A program made the position numbers and the translations under genes. A DNA stretch of 64,000 nucleotides from Eremomyces bilateralis CBS 781.70 (lineage: Eukaryota; Ascomycota; Dothideomycetes; Eremomycetales; Eremomycetaceae). A model generated the notes under the pieces. The model was not told the origin of the DNA, did no database searches, and saw only the letters and a list, made by a program, of their open reading frames with translations. The stretch's first letter is position 1, and every line of letters starts with the position of its first letter. Positions 11,172 to 47,643 of this stretch are shown in pieces. The stretch spans positions 248,001-312,000 of the forward strand of contig NW_022985076.1 of assembly GCF_010015585.1 (NCBI RefSeq), written 5' to 3'.

Positions 11172-12953
11172 ATGAGGTTGGTGTTGTGCCGTACCATACG
11201 GCCCCGACAATTGCAGAACGCATCATGGACTCGCCGCAAGTCCACCATCGCTGCCATCAAAAGCGGAGTATGGAAAGAGAATGTTGACGAGAAGGGGGAT
11301 TCGTTTCGTTCCCGACGACATTTCATAGAGCGGGGGCCTGATGAAAGAAGACGAAGCGACGATGGGAACAGCTCCCGGTTTCGTCCATCTCCCAGAGATC
11401 GCGATGAACCTCCTCAAGGAAGGCGAGGCGACGATAGAAGGGCCTCCCGATTTCGATCATCTCCCAGACATCGCGATGAACCTAGTGAAGGCCGACAAGG
11501 CGACGATAGATATACCTCCCGACTTCGATCATCTTCCAGACGTGGCGATGAACCTGCTACAAAACGGCGAGACGATAACGGAGCCCCGTCTCGATTTGGA
11601 CTGCCTTCTAGGCACCACGATGAACCTACTGAAGGACGGCGAGACGATAGCCACACCTCCCGATTTCGATCATCTCGTGGCCGTCACGATGAACCTCCCG
11701 ATGTCCTCCCCCACAGGTCTGCGACCTCCCAATTCCTCTTTGGCACATCCACCGTCGTCGCGGCCCTCCGTGCGAAACGCCGGCAGCTCTACCAATTATA
11801 TATCGTCCACGACAAGATGCCGAAAGACGACTCGTCCCTGACCGCCGACGACATCCTGAAGCTGGCATCTAACGCCCGTTGCCCATATCGGATCGTGGAA
11901 CGCGACTGGTTACCCCTTTTCGACCGCGTGAGCGAAGCCCGACCACACAACGGCCTCATCCTCGAGGCATCCCCTCTCCCCACACCCCCCGTATCCGCTC
12001 TCCTCCCCGTCGACCAACGCGCCACCCAAATCGACGCCGCCTCTCCTTCCCTCACCACCACCCCCTCCCCCTCACTCACCATCCCCCTCCCCCGCCATCA
12101 CCACGCTTTCCGCTCTCCCTTCCCCTTCCTCCCCCTCTTCGACACCGTCCTCAACCCAGGCAACCTCGGCTCCCTCCTCCGCTCTGTCCACTTCCTCGGC
12201 CTCCCCTCCGTCCTCCTCTCCACCCGCACCTGCGCCCCCCTCAATGCCTCCACCCTCAAAGCTGCCTCCGGCGCCGCCGACGCCCTGCGCATCCTCGCCG
12301 TCTCCGAGCCTGCCCGCTTCCTCGACGAGAGCATCCGCAACGGCTGGCGCGTCTACGGTGCCGCGAGCCCCGAGGCCGCAGCCAACATTGGCGAGGCGAT
12401 GGGATGGCGGTCGTCGTCGACTCGCGAGAAGCATCGGAGGGGTCCGGAGCTCCCAGGCTCGACGGTCGTGTTCTCCGCGCGCTGGGAAGGCGGCGTGGCG
12501 CCAGCGAAGCCGTTGTTCGAGATGTCACCGCATCCTCTGGGAAAGAGCCCGGTGATTTTGCTGATAGGTGGGGAAGGGAAGGGGCTGCGGCCAGCGCTTC
12601 TGAAGCGGTGTCAGGGGTTTCTTGGGATTACGAAGGGGAGGAAGGTGGGTGGAGATGTGGGGGTGGATAGTTTGGGGGTGGCGGTGGCAGGGGCGGTGGT
12701 GATGGAAGGGATGTATGGTTCGTGGTTGTATGGGAGGGGGAGAAGGGAGGGGAAAGGGGTGGAGGAGGCGGATGAAGAGGAGGAGGATGGAGAGGGAAAG
12801 GAGATGGAGATAGAAGAGGTGGAGGAGACGGTTGAGGTGGGAGGTGGAGAGGGAGAGCAAGTTGTTGAAGAAGAGAGACGGCGGGAATTGCTCACCGAGC
12901 ACGGAGAAGACGATCCCGAAGAAAAGGCCAAGCAAGAAAGTCGACTGTGGTAA
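11172..12953 (+). CDS. MRM1: Mitochondrial rRNA 2'-O-ribose methyltransferase, SpoU family
   Basis: A single exon of 593 residues starts at ATG 11172, the first ATG after an in-frame stop. The basic N-terminus (Arg-rich, MRLVLCRTIRPRQL) fits a mitochondrial presequence. A repetitive Arg/Ser/Asp region follows (about residues 55-175), then the substrate-binding domain start FLFGTSTVVAAL. The SpoU/TrmH catalytic motifs are NPGNLGSLLRSVHFLG (near 327), LIGGEGKGLR (near 463) and VDSLGVAVAGAV (near 497). MRM1 methylates a guanosine in the peptidyl-transferase loop of the mitochondrial large rRNA. The protein is longer than yeast Mrm1 (412 residues) because of the repeats, a Pro/Ser/Thr-rich insert before motif 1 and a very acidic Glu-rich tail. 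Confidence 0.92.
   Translation: MRLVLCRTIRPRQLQNASWTRRKSTIAAIKSGVWKENVDEKGDSFRSRRHFIERGPDERRRSDDGNSSRFRPSPRDRDEPPQGRRGDDRRASRFRSSPRHRDEPSEGRQGDDRYTSRLRSSSRRGDEPATKRRDDNGAPSRFGLPSRHHDEPTEGRRDDSHTSRFRSSRGRHDEPPDVLPHRSATSQFLFGTSTVVAALRAKRRQLYQLYIVHDKMPKDDSSLTADDILKLASNARCPYRIVERDWLPLFDRVSEARPHNGLILEASPLPTPPVSALLPVDQRATQIDAASPSLTTTPSPSLTIPLPRHHHAFRSPFPFLPLFDTVLNPGNLGSLLRSVHFLGLPSVLLSTRTCAPLNASTLKAASGAADALRILAVSEPARFLDESIRNGWRVYGAASPEAAANIGEAMGWRSSSTREKHRRGPELPGSTVVFSARWEGGVAPAKPLFEMSPHPLGKSPVILLIGGEGKGLRPALLKRCQGFLGITKGRKVGGDVGVDSLGVAVAGAVVMEGMYGSWLYGRGRREGKGVEEADEEEEDGEGKEMEIEEVEETVEVGGGEGEQVVEEERRRELLTEHGEDDPEEKAKQESRLW
11346..11705 (+). repeat. 72-bp coding tandem repeat, about five copies
   Basis: The word cgatgaacct recurs at 11402, 11474, 11546, 11618 and 11687, a spacing of 72, 72, 72 and 69 nt. 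Each unit encodes about 24 residues of the form RRGDD-x4-SRFRSS-x-RHRDEP-x-EG inside MRM1. Copies have diverged but the period stays a multiple of three. Confidence 0.9.
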
Positions 12954-13196
12954 TATATTTATCTGATTATAACCATAATCAATTCAATGCTGCCACTATG
13001 TCCATCACGCTATGCATAAATGTAAAAGGGAGCCGTCCATGTATACTTCCAACCCGTAACATCGGGGTCCGATCCATGCTATGCAATGCTATTCCTTCTC
13101 AACGAAAAGTACAACCTATCCTCATAACTATCGTAGCCGTGCTTTTCATCTCCTTTCCGCGACCTCTCATCTCCGCCTATCTCCTCCCTCTCCAGC

Positions 13197-16100
13197 TCAC
13201 ATCCACCCCCCCTCCCCCGTCCCTGGCACCCTCCCCCCCGGCCCCGGCGGCCCACCCTGCTGCGCCAAATAACTCGACCCATACGCCTGCGGCGCCATCT
13301 GCACCTGCTGCTGCAAATGCCGAATCTTATTCGGATCCGACTGCCCACTCCCCGGAGAAATCGGCGACACCGGCGCCATCGGGGACATCGGTCTCGGGGA
13401 CATCGGTCTCGGCGCCATCCCAGGTCCCATAGCATGCAGCTGCTGTGGTGACGTAGGTCCAGGATGATATCCCCCACCCCCACCACCCATCTGCCCCGCG
13501 CTATTCTGTCGTGCATATCCCGGCCGCGTCGCCACGCCCGGCGGCGCGTGTCCTTGCCGGCTGCTCGATCGATACATGCCGTACGCCTGATTCGCGCCCA
13601 TCATATGTGGTCGTTGCTGATAGCCCGGGTGTGTCGGTCCCGGCCCCTGGCCCGGTCCTGCTTGTTGCGGATAATACCCCGAAGGAGCTGGATACATCTG
13701 CAGCGGCCTCTGCCCATGCGCTGGACCTTGACCAGGCGGATGTACCCCCTGATGATCACGATATAGAGACGGCGATCCCGCCTCCATCCTCGGGTTCCCC
13801 CCAGCCCCCACCACTGCCATCTGCATCATCCGCCCCCTCTCCACCGCCGCGTTCGCCCGCTCCTGCTCCCGCCCCGCAATCACATTCACCAGCCCAGGAC
13901 TACCCCCAAGCGCGACATTCGGCCCTGGGCTGCTGGCACGGGGATTCGCCCCTGGACTCCCCCCAACCCCCAGACTCAACGAGCTCGGATTACGCTCATG
14001 CCGCGGCCCGTCCCGACTCCGCAACCCATCGCGGCTGCCCGCGGCGGCGCGCATGACGAGCAGCTCATCGGGCGTCGGGGTGACGCGCCCGCCGGCCGTG
14101 CCGGGTCGGACGCCGGCGGCGGAGCCCGGGCGGGAATTCGGGTTCGCGAGGAGGTTCGTGGAGGATTTGTTGCGGGTGTGGGTGTAGAGGGGGCCAGGCT
14201 TGGCGGCCTCGCCGCGTTGGCGGACCCATTCGTCGGGGGAGAGGGGGGTGGTGGATTGGGGGGATTGGCCGGGGGGAGGAGCGAGGTTAGGGGACCATTG
14301 AGGATTGGAGGGGGTGGGGAGGGGTTTGGTGGGGGAGCGGGAGTGGAGGCGGGGGTTGGGTTGGGTGGTTTCGGTGGGGGGGAGGTATTCGCGGACAACT
14401 TGGGCGGTGGCAGTGGGGTTATGGGTGAACCGGTTGGAGTTGTCGGTCGGGGGTTTGGGTCGGTAGGCGTAGGTGGGTCCGAAGTCGACGTTGGGGATGT
14501 CGGAGCCGGGATGCTTAGACGCTCCGGGGGTGTATGTGGTATCTCCGACTCGAATGTCTTGTGGCTCGACATTCCCCACGGTTCGTAGCTGTCCGGCACG
14601 AGGGGCGTCGAATGATTCCTTGGATGGGTTGGCGGACCGGTCCGTTGATGGTGGGGTATCGTAGTCTGTGGTTCCGGAAGCTCCATCTCCATCCCCATCG
14701 GCACCGTCCATCCCACGGTATCCGTAGTTCCCAGCTCCACGGCCGAGATGTGGCTCAGCATGTGCATGGGCAGGGAGTGGTTTCCTCCGAACCGGCTGTC
14801 CACCACTCAGCCGATCGCCACCCGGCGACGTATTTACTGGAGATACGTCGCCTACGTGGTCCTGCTTAGCCTGCATACGGGGCAGGCCTTCCTGGGCGGA
14901 CATTCCCGGGCTGCGAGATTGAGGCGGAAGATGAGTCGCGTGCACTTGGCCATGTTCAGGGACGGGAGGAGGAGGACCCACATTCGAAGCAAAATATTCC
15001 TTGGTGGCGTGCGGTTGCGTGGGACTCCCTGCCTGCGGCACGTACGGAGAGGCCGGGATGGTGGGAAGGCGGGTCTGGCTTTGCTGTTGCTGTTGGTAGG
15101 GCCCGGAATTCCAGCCGGAGCGGGGCGCGATGTATTGCGGTTGGGGCTGCGACGGGTCAAATGGGTCGGCTTCATCCGTGCTCTGGCGTCCGGGAGGATA
15201 GGCTCCGTTGGTTCTCCGATCGTTCTTCCATGCCGAAGCGGCACCAGCGATGGCCAGAGATCCAAGGACTCCTCCAGAAGGTAGGTTCTTCAGCGTTGCC
15301 TCGTCCATGGGGGAGTTTTGCCGTCCCGGGGTTTCTCCGGGATAGAGTTGTGCGGTCGGTCGTTGACTGGGCTTGTGCTGGAATTGCGGAGGAGCGGCAA
15401 CAGGTGCTGGAGTGGCTTGAACTCCCTTGACGGCTGCGAGCTCCTCGGGAATCTCACTCGGCCTGCCACCGCTCAATCCGCTGCCGTCTGACTCCGGCGT
15501 CATACGATCGCGCGTTACACCACCATATCCGTCCGATCCCTGCGATGAAGTGGGATTGTATGCAGATTGGCCAAACGCCGTCGAACTATACGGCACACCT
15601 TGGCGGTGAGCCGGAGGAGGTGGCGGAGAGTCATCACTGTCGCCAAATCGAACGCCTTCCGCGTCAACCGATTCTCCCGACGCCAACCTTGATCCACCTT
15701 TGAAGTCCGGCGTTTCTGACGCCGATCGTTTGTGCTGCATCGCCTGCGCGAGGCCGTTCGGAGGCGCAGAACCGGTTCGCGTCGGATCATCGATGCTCGC
15801 ACGCACGGGAGAGACTTGTCCGGATGCGGGGGTAGAGGGGGCTTGGAACCGAATACCTCCTTTCGACGCGGGAAGACTGCTCCGACTATCGCGACGGCTG
15901 CCGATTCGACTTCCGACGGGACTGCGTCCGGCAAGCATGCGTTTGTTGGTCAGGTCCTTCATCTGCTTGCGCCATGCTCTCTCGCTCCAATTGGTGCTGC
16001 CCTCGGTGTGAACCAAACCCGCGACGTCCAAGATGTCAAGGTATCCGTATCTCTTGTCTTTCGGCAAGGCGAACATCAGACCTCGAGCATCTAGCACGTC

Positions 16101-21988: not shown

Positions 21989-22978
21989 CTATTCGACCTC
22001 TTCCTGCTCCTCCGTACTCCTAACCCTCGTCAACCCCTCTCCAACATGTTTCCGCTCCTCATCCCGCTCCTCAGGTCCTCGTGCCCGCTCCAACTCCCTA
22101 CACCTCCCCGCCAAATCACTCACATGCTCATCCACACTCTCCGGACTCAGCGTCTCCAACGCCATCTCCAGCATGTACAAATACTCTTTATTCTCCCCAC
22201 TCGGACCCACGCTCTTCAAGATATGCGCCGCGAGCGCATCGAGATCCTGCGGGCCGACGAATTGCGGATTCTCGGGGAGTCCGATGTAGACCAGGCATGA
22301 GAACTTCTCCGGGAGCGAACCGTCGGATTGTCGGACGGATTCGGCGGGGTAGAACGGTGTGTATTGGATCGAGTAGCCGTTAATTTCGCGGATGTCGAGG
22401 TATTCTTTTACCTCTTGGGTGCGAGCCGGGGGGATGTGGTAGGCGGCGCCCCATACTCTCTCTGGGGCGTTGGCGTGCTTAGACATTATTCAGCAGCATT
22501 CTTCGGAGTCGATGTCTAATAGCTGGACCGCTACATACTGGGTCGGAAAGTGATTTCCAGTGATCATGATCGATGAGCGTGACAACCCGACCGGGTGCCT
22601 GAGGCGTCCCACGATGATCTTCGCTGCGGGATAATTAGATTGAGAAAGATGGTAATAATGTTTGTTTGTTCTTTACCTTGCCTACATCAATATCGAGGTT
22701 TCCTTAGCATCCCGATATTTAATATGATTTCGCGGCCCGTCGCTCACCTGCCAAAATCTGCGAACATAGCGGTTGATATATCCGGGTACTCTCCTATCTG
22801 ATGGACTGTATGAGATTATGGTCTAAAACACGATGTAGATGACGCTCACCGAAATGAGGTGGAGGCTTCCATATCAAACTCCTGCATCATGATCAGCTTC
22901 CGTCTTGCATGTCATAGAATCTGAGGATAACACGTACCCATATCCAAAAAGCCAGAGGCCACTTGTCTCGTCTTCCAT
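21989..22978 (-). CDS. ChaC-type gamma-glutamylcyclotransferase
   Basis: Six exons are inferred: 22978-22938, 22881-22850, 22797-22748, 22681-22677 (5 nt), 22623-22539 and 22477-21989, with introns of 56, 52, 66, 53 and 61 nt; 233 residues. The product reads in order FGYGSLIWKPPPHF, RVPGYINRYVRRFWQ, ASEDHRGTPQAPGRVVTLI, RVWGAAYHIPP and YLDIREINGYS, the ChaC family sequence from end to end. The YGSLIW loop binds the gamma-glutamyl group and Glu102 in REINGY is the likely catalytic acid. ChaC enzymes cleave glutathione to 5-oxoproline and Cys-Gly in the cytosol. The C-terminal 60 residues are Glu/Arg-rich. Family certain; the microexon is an inference from frame and motif. Confidence 0.92.
22677..22681 (-). 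other. 5-nt microexon GCAAG in the ChaC gene
   Basis: Read on the minus strand, a TAG acceptor stands directly before GCAAG and a GTAAAG donor directly after. Including these five bases joins RRFWQ to SEDHRGTP as WQ-A-S-EDH in frame. Splicing exon 3 straight to exon 5 would shift the frame. Confidence 0.72.
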
Positions 22979-23306: not shown

Positions 23307-24959
23307 CTATTCTTTCTTCCCGACGGCGCCTTTTTCCATGTCTTCACAGACTTCCACTTCAACAGGGAGACTCTCCCCCTCTGAACTATCATTGCGCAGC
23401 GATATATCGGTGATAGGTTCCTTTTTATTTCTGAGTCCGAATCCACCACCCCATCCGATCCAACCCTTCTCATGCGGCCCCCTGACAAGGGCGATTAAAA
23501 GCGCAGCGCAAACAAAGCCCACGCTGGCACTGCCGCTGCGAATCCATCCGCCAGCAGCGTAAAGATGACTACCAGCCGAAGTGCCAGTCAGTTGGCCGCA
23601 GAACACCGACACCATGAACGCCGTGTTTAGTCGATTGCGTGCCTTGGGTTCAATCGAATAGATAGCGCTACGGTTCGCGATCTGCGTGGTCTGCATCCCA
23701 AAGTCATTGAGGATGGCGTGGATAATCGGTCCAGCCACCGTAATTGTCCCCGTATACGTCCCGATGATGATGCCGACAAGCGCCAAACTTATTCCGACTA
23801 GGACGCTGAATAATGGGACGAAGCGATCCGTGACGAGACGGGCGTAGAGCGGCCCGAGGATCATTACCGCGACGCCGATGAGGCCGAATAGGCCAATAAC
23901 TAGCGGGGAATAAAAATATGGCGATCCCGAGAGCAAGAAAGTGACGACGGTCCAGAAGTTCGTGAAGGTCGCGGAGGAGAAAAAGCCGATCAAGCAGGCC
24001 TGGACGAGGACGGGGTGCTGGCATACCATCTGCACGATTGACCACAGCATGTAGAAGTAGTTGAGTCCATCGGGGTTGGTCGACGGATAGTCCGGCATGA
24101 AGAGCCAGAGTAAAACGAGGATCGAATATTGCAGACCGAGCGCCATCCAGTACACGTTACGCCAGGAGGTGAAGTTGGTCATTGTCCCCGAGACCACTCT
24201 GGCGATCAAGATCCCCAACATAAGTCCTGAAACTACGATTGACAGCGCGGCCGCTCTACGCTCTGGAGGAGCAAGGTCGCCGACCAGTGGTAGAGCAAGT
24301 TGCGGAGTGACCGTCGTCACCGAGGTGATGAACGAAATGGCCGTGAAAAGCGTTAGCGACTTGGTGACGCACAACACTATCCTGCGGAAGTCTTAGCATG
24401 CCGAAACGAATTCTCCAACCGTTATCACCAACCATAGCGTCGCAGTGAGAAACACCAAACCCAGCACGAAATGTCTTCTCCTGAGCAAGTCTCCCAAAGG
24501 ACACAGAAAGAGGAGGCCCGCCGCATACCCAGCCTGCATCACGGTAGGGATCTGCGAGACTTTCTCATACGGAACCCCAAAATCTGCAGCGAGGACATTT
24601 AGAATCGGGTGCGTGTAATAGAGATTCGCCACGGAAAAGGCCGCCGCGAACGCGAACAGTACGTTTAGGCCAATCGAGAAGGTGGGTGGCTTCTCCGGAT
24701 CCCAGCGACATCTTGGAGGCGTCCAGGTCACGAACCATACGACACTGCTCCATGCTTTCTTCAATTGGCCAGTCCATGGCTGGTCCCGGTTTGAGGGTTC
24801 CAAATCCACGCCCGATATCGTGGATGTATGTGGCTTTTCTTGGATTGTTGAGGTTGACTCGGAAACGTTCGACTTCGGCTGTGGGGTATCTTGGATCGGG
24901 ATTAATGGGGATTCAATCTTATCTCCGGACTTCGTCCCATCTGCCAGGTTGCCGCTCAT
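23307..24959 (-). CDS. MFS transporter (YnfM-like)
   Basis: Two exons, 24959-24433 and 24381-23307, give 533 residues. The 51-nt intron uses a GTTGGT donor; the more attractive GTGATA donor 4 nt downstream would break the frame, while GTTGGT gives the smooth TATLW-IVLCVTKSL. About 90 polar residues precede the first membrane helix. The first half has YYTHPILNVLAADFGVP, PTVMQAGYAAGLLFLCPLGD and the cytoplasmic motif GDLLRRRH, typical MFS loop 2-3 features. The second half has PLVGDLAPPERRAAALSIV and further helices. The protein resembles bacterial YnfM-type permeases and their fungal relatives. The substrate cannot be read from sequence. It lies 357 nt upstream of the SDR gene on the same strand, without evidence of a shared function. 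Confidence 0.87.
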
Positions 24960-46293: not shown

Positions 46294-47643
46294 ATGAATC
46301 AAATGAACCCTGGGATGTACCAGCAGCAGCCATATCCTGTGTACGGAATCGTACAGCCGAGTCCAGCGTATAGACCGCTGGAAAGGTGCGCTAGAAATCC
46401 GTCGCGGGCGCCATTATTGCAAAACAGCAACTCATCAACTAACCGGGACACTTACAGTCGAGATGTGCGGTTGCTCGTTCGGCAGCAGCCGAAAGAAGCT
46501 CTGGTAGCCGTCGAAGGGAAGGAGAAGGGTACTTCGTCCTCTCGCCGAACGCTCCGAAGCATCGCTAACCGCAGGCCAGGGCGCAAACCCGTCGATCCCC
46601 CTCCCTTCGTGCAGCTTGTCGTGCATCAGCAAGCCGATCCTTCTTCGTGAGTAGAGAATCTACACTGAGCGACGTAGCATTAGCTGACTGCTCCAGGGTG
46701 TACCTCTCCAACCCGTATCTGTTTTGCGTGGCATCACTGTATGACAAGACAGGACGAGTCCCGGCGAACAGTGGCAAAGCACTTACAGGAACTCTGGTTT
46801 CATCATTACACCGGGTGAAAGATACCGATAACAATGGTAAGCACCCCGTTACCGTTCAAGAACCCAGACTGACCCTCCAAGATGGTGGCTTCTTCGTCTT
46901 CGGTGACGTTTCAGTGAAGCTCCCAGGAGAACACGTCTTATGCTTTACGCTCTACGATTATCGAAAGTGAGCAATCACGCATTGCGTCCAAGACACCATT
47001 CTAATACTTCCTAGGGAGGAAGGCGCTGCCTTCAAATTATGCCAGGGCTTCTCAGAGCCCTTCAAAGGTAGGATCGGTGGAGTTATTCTCAATGGTCCAA
47101 ACTAATTCAAGGACAGTCGTAACCCAGAAGGAGTTCCGCGGACTGGATGAGTCGACATATCTGTCCCGAGCCTTCTCTGATCAGGGGATTCGACTCCGGC
47201 TCCGCAAAGAACCTCGCGCCTTCGGGTCAGTCTCCTCAGTGCATCCTGCACGCTCCAGAACGCTAACCACCTCTAGCAGGCCAACCAAGCGCGGTTTCAA
47301 GGACACAGTAGAGGCGCCAGAGCAGGGCGAAGCCGAGCACTCGTTTGTGACCGACTTCAATGCGGACCCTCTGGACCCGGAGCGAACGCCCAAACGCGCG
47401 CGAACCATGGGCTCCGATCAGTACGACTTCGCGGGCGGGATGCCACGCGACTGGGCGCTGCCCGACCCTAGGGATAGCCAGGGACAGGTCTTCAACTCGA
47501 TGACATCGCTTGCGGAGCCGTTCCCCAGACAGGAGCCGTACGCACGACCGGAGTTCGCAAGACAGGGACAGGGATATCCGGATATCAGTGGGGTCGGGGG
47601 CCTAGACTTGTATCAGTCTGATGTATTCTATCCTGGCCAATGA
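46294..47643 (+). CDS. Velvet-domain regulator, VosA/VelC type
   Basis: Seven exons, 46294-46528, 46580-46646, 46697-46836, 46882-46966, 47015-47067, 47117-47225 and 47277-47643 (introns 45-51 nt), give 351 residues. The velvet domain runs from about residue 53 to 230: DVRLLVRQQPKEALVA, GKEKGRKPVDPPPFVQL (joined by intron 1), YLSNPYLFCVASLYDK, TGTLVSSLHRVKDTDNN, GGFFVFGDVSVKLPGEH, SEPFKVVTQKEF and STYLSRAFSDQGIRLRLRKE. The GTLVSSLH and FSDQGIRLRLRKEPR blocks fit the VosA/VelC subgroup better than VelB or VeA. Velvet proteins bind DNA as dimers and coordinate sporulation with secondary metabolism. The C-terminus carries a basic RTPKRAR-like patch, a possible nuclear signal. Intron 6 is stop-free and 51 nt, so it could also be retained. 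Confidence 0.92.

Follow-up and report, generated by a model that had tools for sequence, protein, structure and literature searches.

The question raised by this locus is whether an exon of only five nucleotides lies within the 124 bases that separate the end of exon 3 (22748) from the start of exon 5 (22623) in a ChaC gene. The gene is located on the minus strand of the window, i.e., the whole stretch of 64,000 nucleotides that was analyzed, and a 233-residue ChaC protein is encoded at 22978-21989 (-) by six predicted exons, of which the microexon is exon 4. Exon 1 (22938..22978) encodes MEDETSGLWLFGYG and its final codon is split; the GYGSL motif crosses the junction with exon 2 (22850..22881), which encodes SLIWKPPPHF and has split codons at both ends. 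These exons are separated by intron 1 (22882..22937; 56 nt, GTACGT...CAG), and intron 2 (22798..22849; 52 nt, GTGAGC...CAG, with a weak branch score of 2.1) leads to exon 3 (22748..22797), which is 50 nt long. Intron 3 (22682..22747; 66 nt, GTGAGC...GATGTAG, with a branch-like TGCTAAG) is followed by the microexon (22677..22681), in which GCAAG supplies an Ala codon and bases 1-2 of a Ser codon, and by intron 4 (22624..22676; 53 nt, GTAAAG...CCCGCAG, with a branch-like ATCTAAT). Exon 5 (22539..22623) opens with a C, continues with EDHRGTPQAPGRVVTL, and ends in SLSDP. Exon 6 (21989..22477) runs to the stop codon and contains most of the ChaC domain, and the open frame at 21989-22486 matched PF04752 at 98.9 bits. 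The predicted spliced sequence at the microexon is ...TTTTGGCAG GCAAG CGAAGATC... (junctions 22748/22681 and 22677/22623), and the codons over the microexon and exon 5 read GCA AG|C GAA GAT (A S E D). The original prediction had placed GCAAG at 22681-22677 (-) between a 66-nt and a 53-nt intron, with TAG and GTAAAG flanks, and these coordinates were exact, base by base; exon 3 does end in RRFWQ, as it had also stated, and does so at 22748 in phase 0. Its claim that exon 5 starts with the second base of a codon was wrong, as the C completes the Ser codon (AG|C) as its third base.

The acceptor of intron 5 (22478..22538; 61 nt, GTATGT...AAG) is uncertain: both the AAG at 22478, which adds HANAPE, and a GAG at 22460 are in frame, whereas a CAG at 22462 scored better than the in-frame acceptors but is out of frame. 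Elsewhere in the window, G+C content was 63% at 12001-16000 vs. 50-55% in the other 4-kb stretches, and a plus-strand frame at approximately 46850-47100 (+) reads, by eye from its translation, like what we take to be a velvet-domain regulator. A Major Facilitator Superfamily (MFS) transporter frame (23307-24377 (-); PF07690, 66.7 bits) is situated on the same strand just upstream of ChaC.

Inclusion of the microexon yields RRFWQ-AS-EDHRGTP, in which Ala-Ser fills a slot of two residues. Every one of the 80 bacterial relatives analyzed (the top 80 of at least 578) has a slot of this length, as do the human and yeast enzymes. In the same 80 (again the best of at least 578), the gap between RRFWQ and DHRG always comprised three residues (xS-x) with Ser in second place; the first slot residue was Gly in 71 and Ala in 6 of the 77 relatives parsed by script, and the remaining three, parsed by eye, read RRFWQGSTDHRG. 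A single-protein query of bacterial and archaeal genomes found no relative, and the relatives were obtained by querying these genomes with a three-sequence alignment (at least 578; the top 80 were retained, and every one of these was used). Two search patterns were employed, one of which covered the WQxSxDH motif; since 52 of the 80 relatives carry His at position 44 (the third slot place), which FWQ[AGS]S[TE]DH disallows, these 52 must have entered via the other pattern. The viral contigs that were scanned contained no ChaC relative. The three residues between RRFWQ and DHRG are GST in ChaC2 (PDB 6k95), SST in PDB 5hwk, which we take to be the yeast enzyme (presumably named Gcg1), and A-S-E in the fungal gene, which is 47% identical to each of the two and shares the motif RRFWQxSxDHRG with both. 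Compared with ChaC2, the fungal protein has a longer C-terminal tail and a short insert after RVVTL. S15, H46, R47, E93, E102, Y106, Y135, and Y170 are unchanged across the three-sequence alignment; the GYGSL motif, the catalytic Glu, and the active-site His-Arg and Tyr are present and invariant in it, and the active-site roles of the human counterpart residues are described in the accessible text of PMC7022552, which also agrees with ChaC2 being human. Counted along the ChaC2 sequence, Ala-Ser corresponds to Gly35-Ser36, which stand where loop 3 begins (34-46; numbering of PMC7022552), and this loop carries the active-site residues His39 and Arg40 (PMC7022552). Two candidates were scored in the genome and one was a family match; the gene appears to be single-copy.

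All alternative ways of splicing between exon 3 and early exon 5 were enumerated from GT or GC donors and AG acceptors (13 donors and 7 acceptors); introns had to measure 40 nt or more, and no more than one additional exon, of up to 60 nt, was permitted. Twenty-nine parses were in frame and free of stops. Scored against a family profile built from the 80 bacterial, the ChaC2, and the yeast sequences, the parse with the microexon ranked first of the 29 (198.0 bits; the next reached 189.7), and among the two-intron parses it also had the highest summed splice score (17.1 + 12.0). With the Pfam ChaC model (PF04752; cut-off 21), the microexon protein scored 192.6 bits vs. 184.1 and 175.0 for two single-intron parses without the microexon. 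When the microexon is skipped and exon 3 is joined to exon 5, the frame shifts and the product is 60 residues long; retention of intron 3 gives 62 residues and retention of intron 4 gives 43. The five bases are required for both the frame and the conserved protein, which supports the earlier proposal that they are needed for WQASEDHRGTP, at least among the 29 in-frame parses enumerated.

At 5 nt, exon 4 falls within the size class of ultra-short internal coding microexons (≤15 nt between two introns), and it is flanked by a canonical AG acceptor (TAG) and GT donor (GTAAAG) with usable introns on both sides, although these signals are weak by matrix. Splice matrices were built from 44 confident introns found in 264 kb of the same contig (window included), sought at 42-110 nt and chosen by a summed score cut of 17.5. 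A looser de novo training run had strayed into coding noise, with 745 "introns," 326 of them having GAG acceptors; it was dropped, and the stricter run was stable at 44. The training introns have A[N]G|GTRWGT-like donors, TGCTAAC-like branches approximately 12 nt from a YAG, and a median length of 55.5 nt; the middle half of their lengths spans 49.75-72.25 nt, and introns 3 (66 nt) and 4 (53 nt) both lie inside it. This set is skewed toward textbook introns with G at +5 and is therefore a biased yardstick, and for this reason donors were also rated by their pairing with the U1 5' end. The donor of intron 3 had a matrix score of 7.5, in the mid-range of training, and with U1 pairing at -11.1 kcal/mol the GTGAGC at 22747 was the strongest of the 106 GT and GC sites in the gene region. 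The donor of intron 4 (GTAAAG) scored 1.9, under the training minimum of 2.6, because it lacks G at +5; GTAAA donors were found in 0 of 63 candidates with a strong acceptor and branch vs. 14 of 3045 for the others. However, AAG|GTAAAG forms 7 U1 pairs, 6 of them consecutive, at -6.8 kcal/mol, which equals or exceeds 57% of the 44 training donors. The acceptors (4.6 and 3.8) and branches (5.0 and 6.3) of introns 3 and 4, respectively, all fell into the bottom quarter of the training values, and the summed scores of 17.1 (intron 3) and 12.0 (intron 4) were below the cut of 17.5, as was that of intron 2 (approximately 16.2). Plausible branch sites had been claimed for both introns, and branch-like sites are indeed present in both; ATCTAAT in intron 4 is 12 nt from its acceptor, whereas TGCTAAG in intron 3 is 23 nt away, just outside the usual spacing (median 12 and 95th percentile 22.85 in the 44 training introns).

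Chance occurrence was assessed by dinucleotide shuffling of the 124 nt, repeated 20,000 times; the first 8 and last 6 bases were fixed, and microexons of 2-20 nt with GT donors and introns of at least 40 nt were allowed. A stop-free microexon that restores the frame arose in 2547 of the 20,000 shuffles, and one of 5 nt in 496. A microexon of any allowed length with an equal or better summed splice score was present in 76/20,000, one encoding [GSA]S in 37/20,000, and one combining both residues with the splice score in 2/20,000. A motif scan of 312 kb that took in the window, for two introns around an exon of 1-15 nt, at a summed score like that of ChaC, returned 113 motif pairs. Open flanks were seen in 108 rows, and 19 rows at ten other places retained both open flanks and a flank codon score of at least 0. 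ChaC was missing from this codon-filtered list, which fits the negative codon scores of its flanks (-4.7 and -0.2); the flanks are short. One 3-nt candidate in the scan (ATC, 52016-52014 (-)) outscored ChaC; it lies within a long unbroken open frame and is probably false. Because ten places in 312 kb score equally well, splice motifs alone would not support a microexon claim, and the case for the predicted microexon is one that rests on the protein family.

Several other readings of the 124 bases were weighed against this background. The simplest employs one intron with another donor, so that exon 3 is extended by 62 nt to 22686 and the segment from GTAGGC (22685) to the CAG at 22624 is removed. 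The result is in frame and without a stop, and the splice score of the 22685->22623 intron (13.9) is higher than the 12.0 of intron 4. However, 21 residues would replace Ala-Ser (net +19), and no insert occurs at this slot in the human or yeast enzyme or in any of the 80 top-ranking bacterial relatives (of at least 578); the family score falls to 178.8 and the Pfam score is the 175.0 given above. Furthermore, GTAGGC pairs poorly with U1 (-4.0 kcal/mol, equal to or above only 14% of the training donors), and its use would mean passing over GTGAGC at 22747, which outranks every other donor in the gene by U1 pairing, making this reading very unlikely. That strong donor is retained in a single intron of 149 nt that ends at the CAG before 22598, which is in frame and has the top single-intron splice score (22747->22598, 15.6), so a gene finder might pick it. 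It loses ASEDHRGTPQ and leaves RRFWQ-APGRVV, with a family score of 156.4, and the missing DHRG contains the His and Arg that are active-site residues of human ChaC2 (PMC7022552, accessible text); it is regarded as highly improbable. It appears just as improbable that a GC-AG intron is used. The GC donors at 22751 (GCAGGT), 22733 (GCGAAA), and 22736 (GCCGCG) are all in frame with exon 5, and the first pairs well with U1 (-7.7 kcal/mol) and has a fair splice score (22751->22623, 13.1), but it turns WQAS into a single Cys (family score 176.1), and the other two score very badly as donors (-4.8 and -12.0 by matrix) and reach 188.9 and 189.7, respectively, in family score.

The remaining readings keep none of the five bases as a normal exon. 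The gene may be broken or the assembly wrong, with 5 nt lost at an exon edge and GCAAG occurring by chance within one 124-nt intron, which accords with the frameshift and the 60-residue product obtained without the five bases. On the other hand, an error of one or two bases would explain the frame but not the two missing residues, the five needed bases sit between splice sites (only 2 of the 20,000 shuffles were as good), and elsewhere the 233-residue frame is uninterrupted and conserved; this explanation is very unlikely. A stwintron, in which two nested introns are removed in turn and none of the 124 nt is kept, comes to mind because the two introns are nearly back to back, and stwintrons have been reported from filamentous ascomycetes; however, without any of the 124 nt the reading frame is lost and the product ends at 60 residues, and such an arrangement is scarcely credible here.

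These results suggest, with considerable confidence, that the locus holds an intact gene for a ChaC2-type glutathione-specific gamma-glutamylcyclotransferase with a constitutive 5-nt exon 4 (GCAAG) and ascomycete-like introns. From the sequence, the microexon is very probably present in the mRNA and constitutively included, and the product is predicted to have ChaC enzyme activity, i.e., to degrade glutathione. Recognition across the intron is the established view for short introns of fungi, and a study of Schizosaccharomyces pombe reportedly addressed such intron definition. Introns 3 and 4, being short, would each be recognized singly across the intron by the spliceosome. In the presumed order of events, excision of one of them would leave the microexon as the end or the beginning of a longer exon by the time the other is spliced out, such that both edges of the 5-nt exon would never need to be bound simultaneously. 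Together with the first base of exon 5, GCAAG would then supply Ala-Ser to RRFWQ-AS-EDHRG, where the active-site loop starts.

A variant of this mechanism is suggested by the junction itself. Joining exon 3 to the microexon creates a GC-type donor, CAG|GCAAGG, whose U1 pairing, at -6.8 kcal/mol, is as strong as that of AAG|GTAAAG, the true donor located 5 nt further downstream. The microexon might thus be a resplicing exon that acts as an off-switch: if the second step used the recreated GC site, the five bases would be ejected and the frame shifted, giving the 60-residue product with a stop in exon 5, upstream of intron 5. If so, splicing could tune glutathione breakdown, but this possibility is considered unlikely, and constitutive inclusion of the microexon is the preferred reading.

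Under constitutive inclusion, the ChaC microexon is comparable to several tiny exons described elsewhere. One close case is CYP621A of Fusarium species, with a 1-nt exon backed by 18 RNA reads and by orthologues in many Fusarium species (PMC12940212). Both cases involve a filamentous ascomycete, an ultra-short exon that is not a multiple of three within a conserved motif, inference from frame and family, and an AG/GT-flanked exon inside an oversized apparent intron (139 nt in CYP621A vs. 124 nt in ChaC); in contrast to the 1-nt exon with its orthologue and read support, the ChaC exon is 5 nt long, belongs to another gene family, and is predicted from the DNA. The Xlr2 microexon of Trichoderma virens, which was missed by the gene model, is likewise a microexon of non-multiple-of-three length in a conserved domain of a filamentous ascomycete protein, but it has 20 nt and was demonstrated by experiment to be a glucose-dependent switch (PMC11121469), whereas that of ChaC is predicted from sequence. 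Tiny exons beside short introns also occur in the P450 genes of Phanerochaete chrysosporium, the shortest being 6 bp, although this fungus is a basidiomycete and skipping a 6-bp exon preserves the frame (PMC1184071). Plant microexons share the size class and are needed for the correct protein, were absent from annotation, and include 1-nt exons in APC11 and VPS55 and an RT-PCR-confirmed 5-nt exon in rice; they differ in coming from plants and in having RNA-seq support from many datasets (PMC8831610). The statement in the original prediction that such exons are rare in any eukaryote was therefore overstated, given the 2,398 exons of ≤15 nt reported across 10 plant species (PMC8831610) and the 1-nt Fusarium exon (PMC12940212). 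Among the papers listed from the literature searched, which covers few subscription journals, no report of a ChaC microexon was found; in a zebrafish microexon study (PMC12626424), a word beginning with "chac" occurs once. Tiny exons are already known down to 1 nt, and the ChaC case is a good new example rather than a new type.

It had also been proposed that this gene is probably mis-annotated in related genomes, which is plausible because the three in-frame single-intron parses have fair splice scores and would yield a wrong protein. If transcripts confirm it, the microexon would be among the shorter fungal exons on record. The case offers annotators a clean test, as the family has a fixed length at this slot in the relatives examined and any annotation lacking the exon has to lose or make up residues; the family profile picks the right parse here, and splice motifs alone cannot find such exons. 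If the microexon is real, it would belong to the active-site loop of an enzyme for glutathione breakdown that spans from bacteria to humans.
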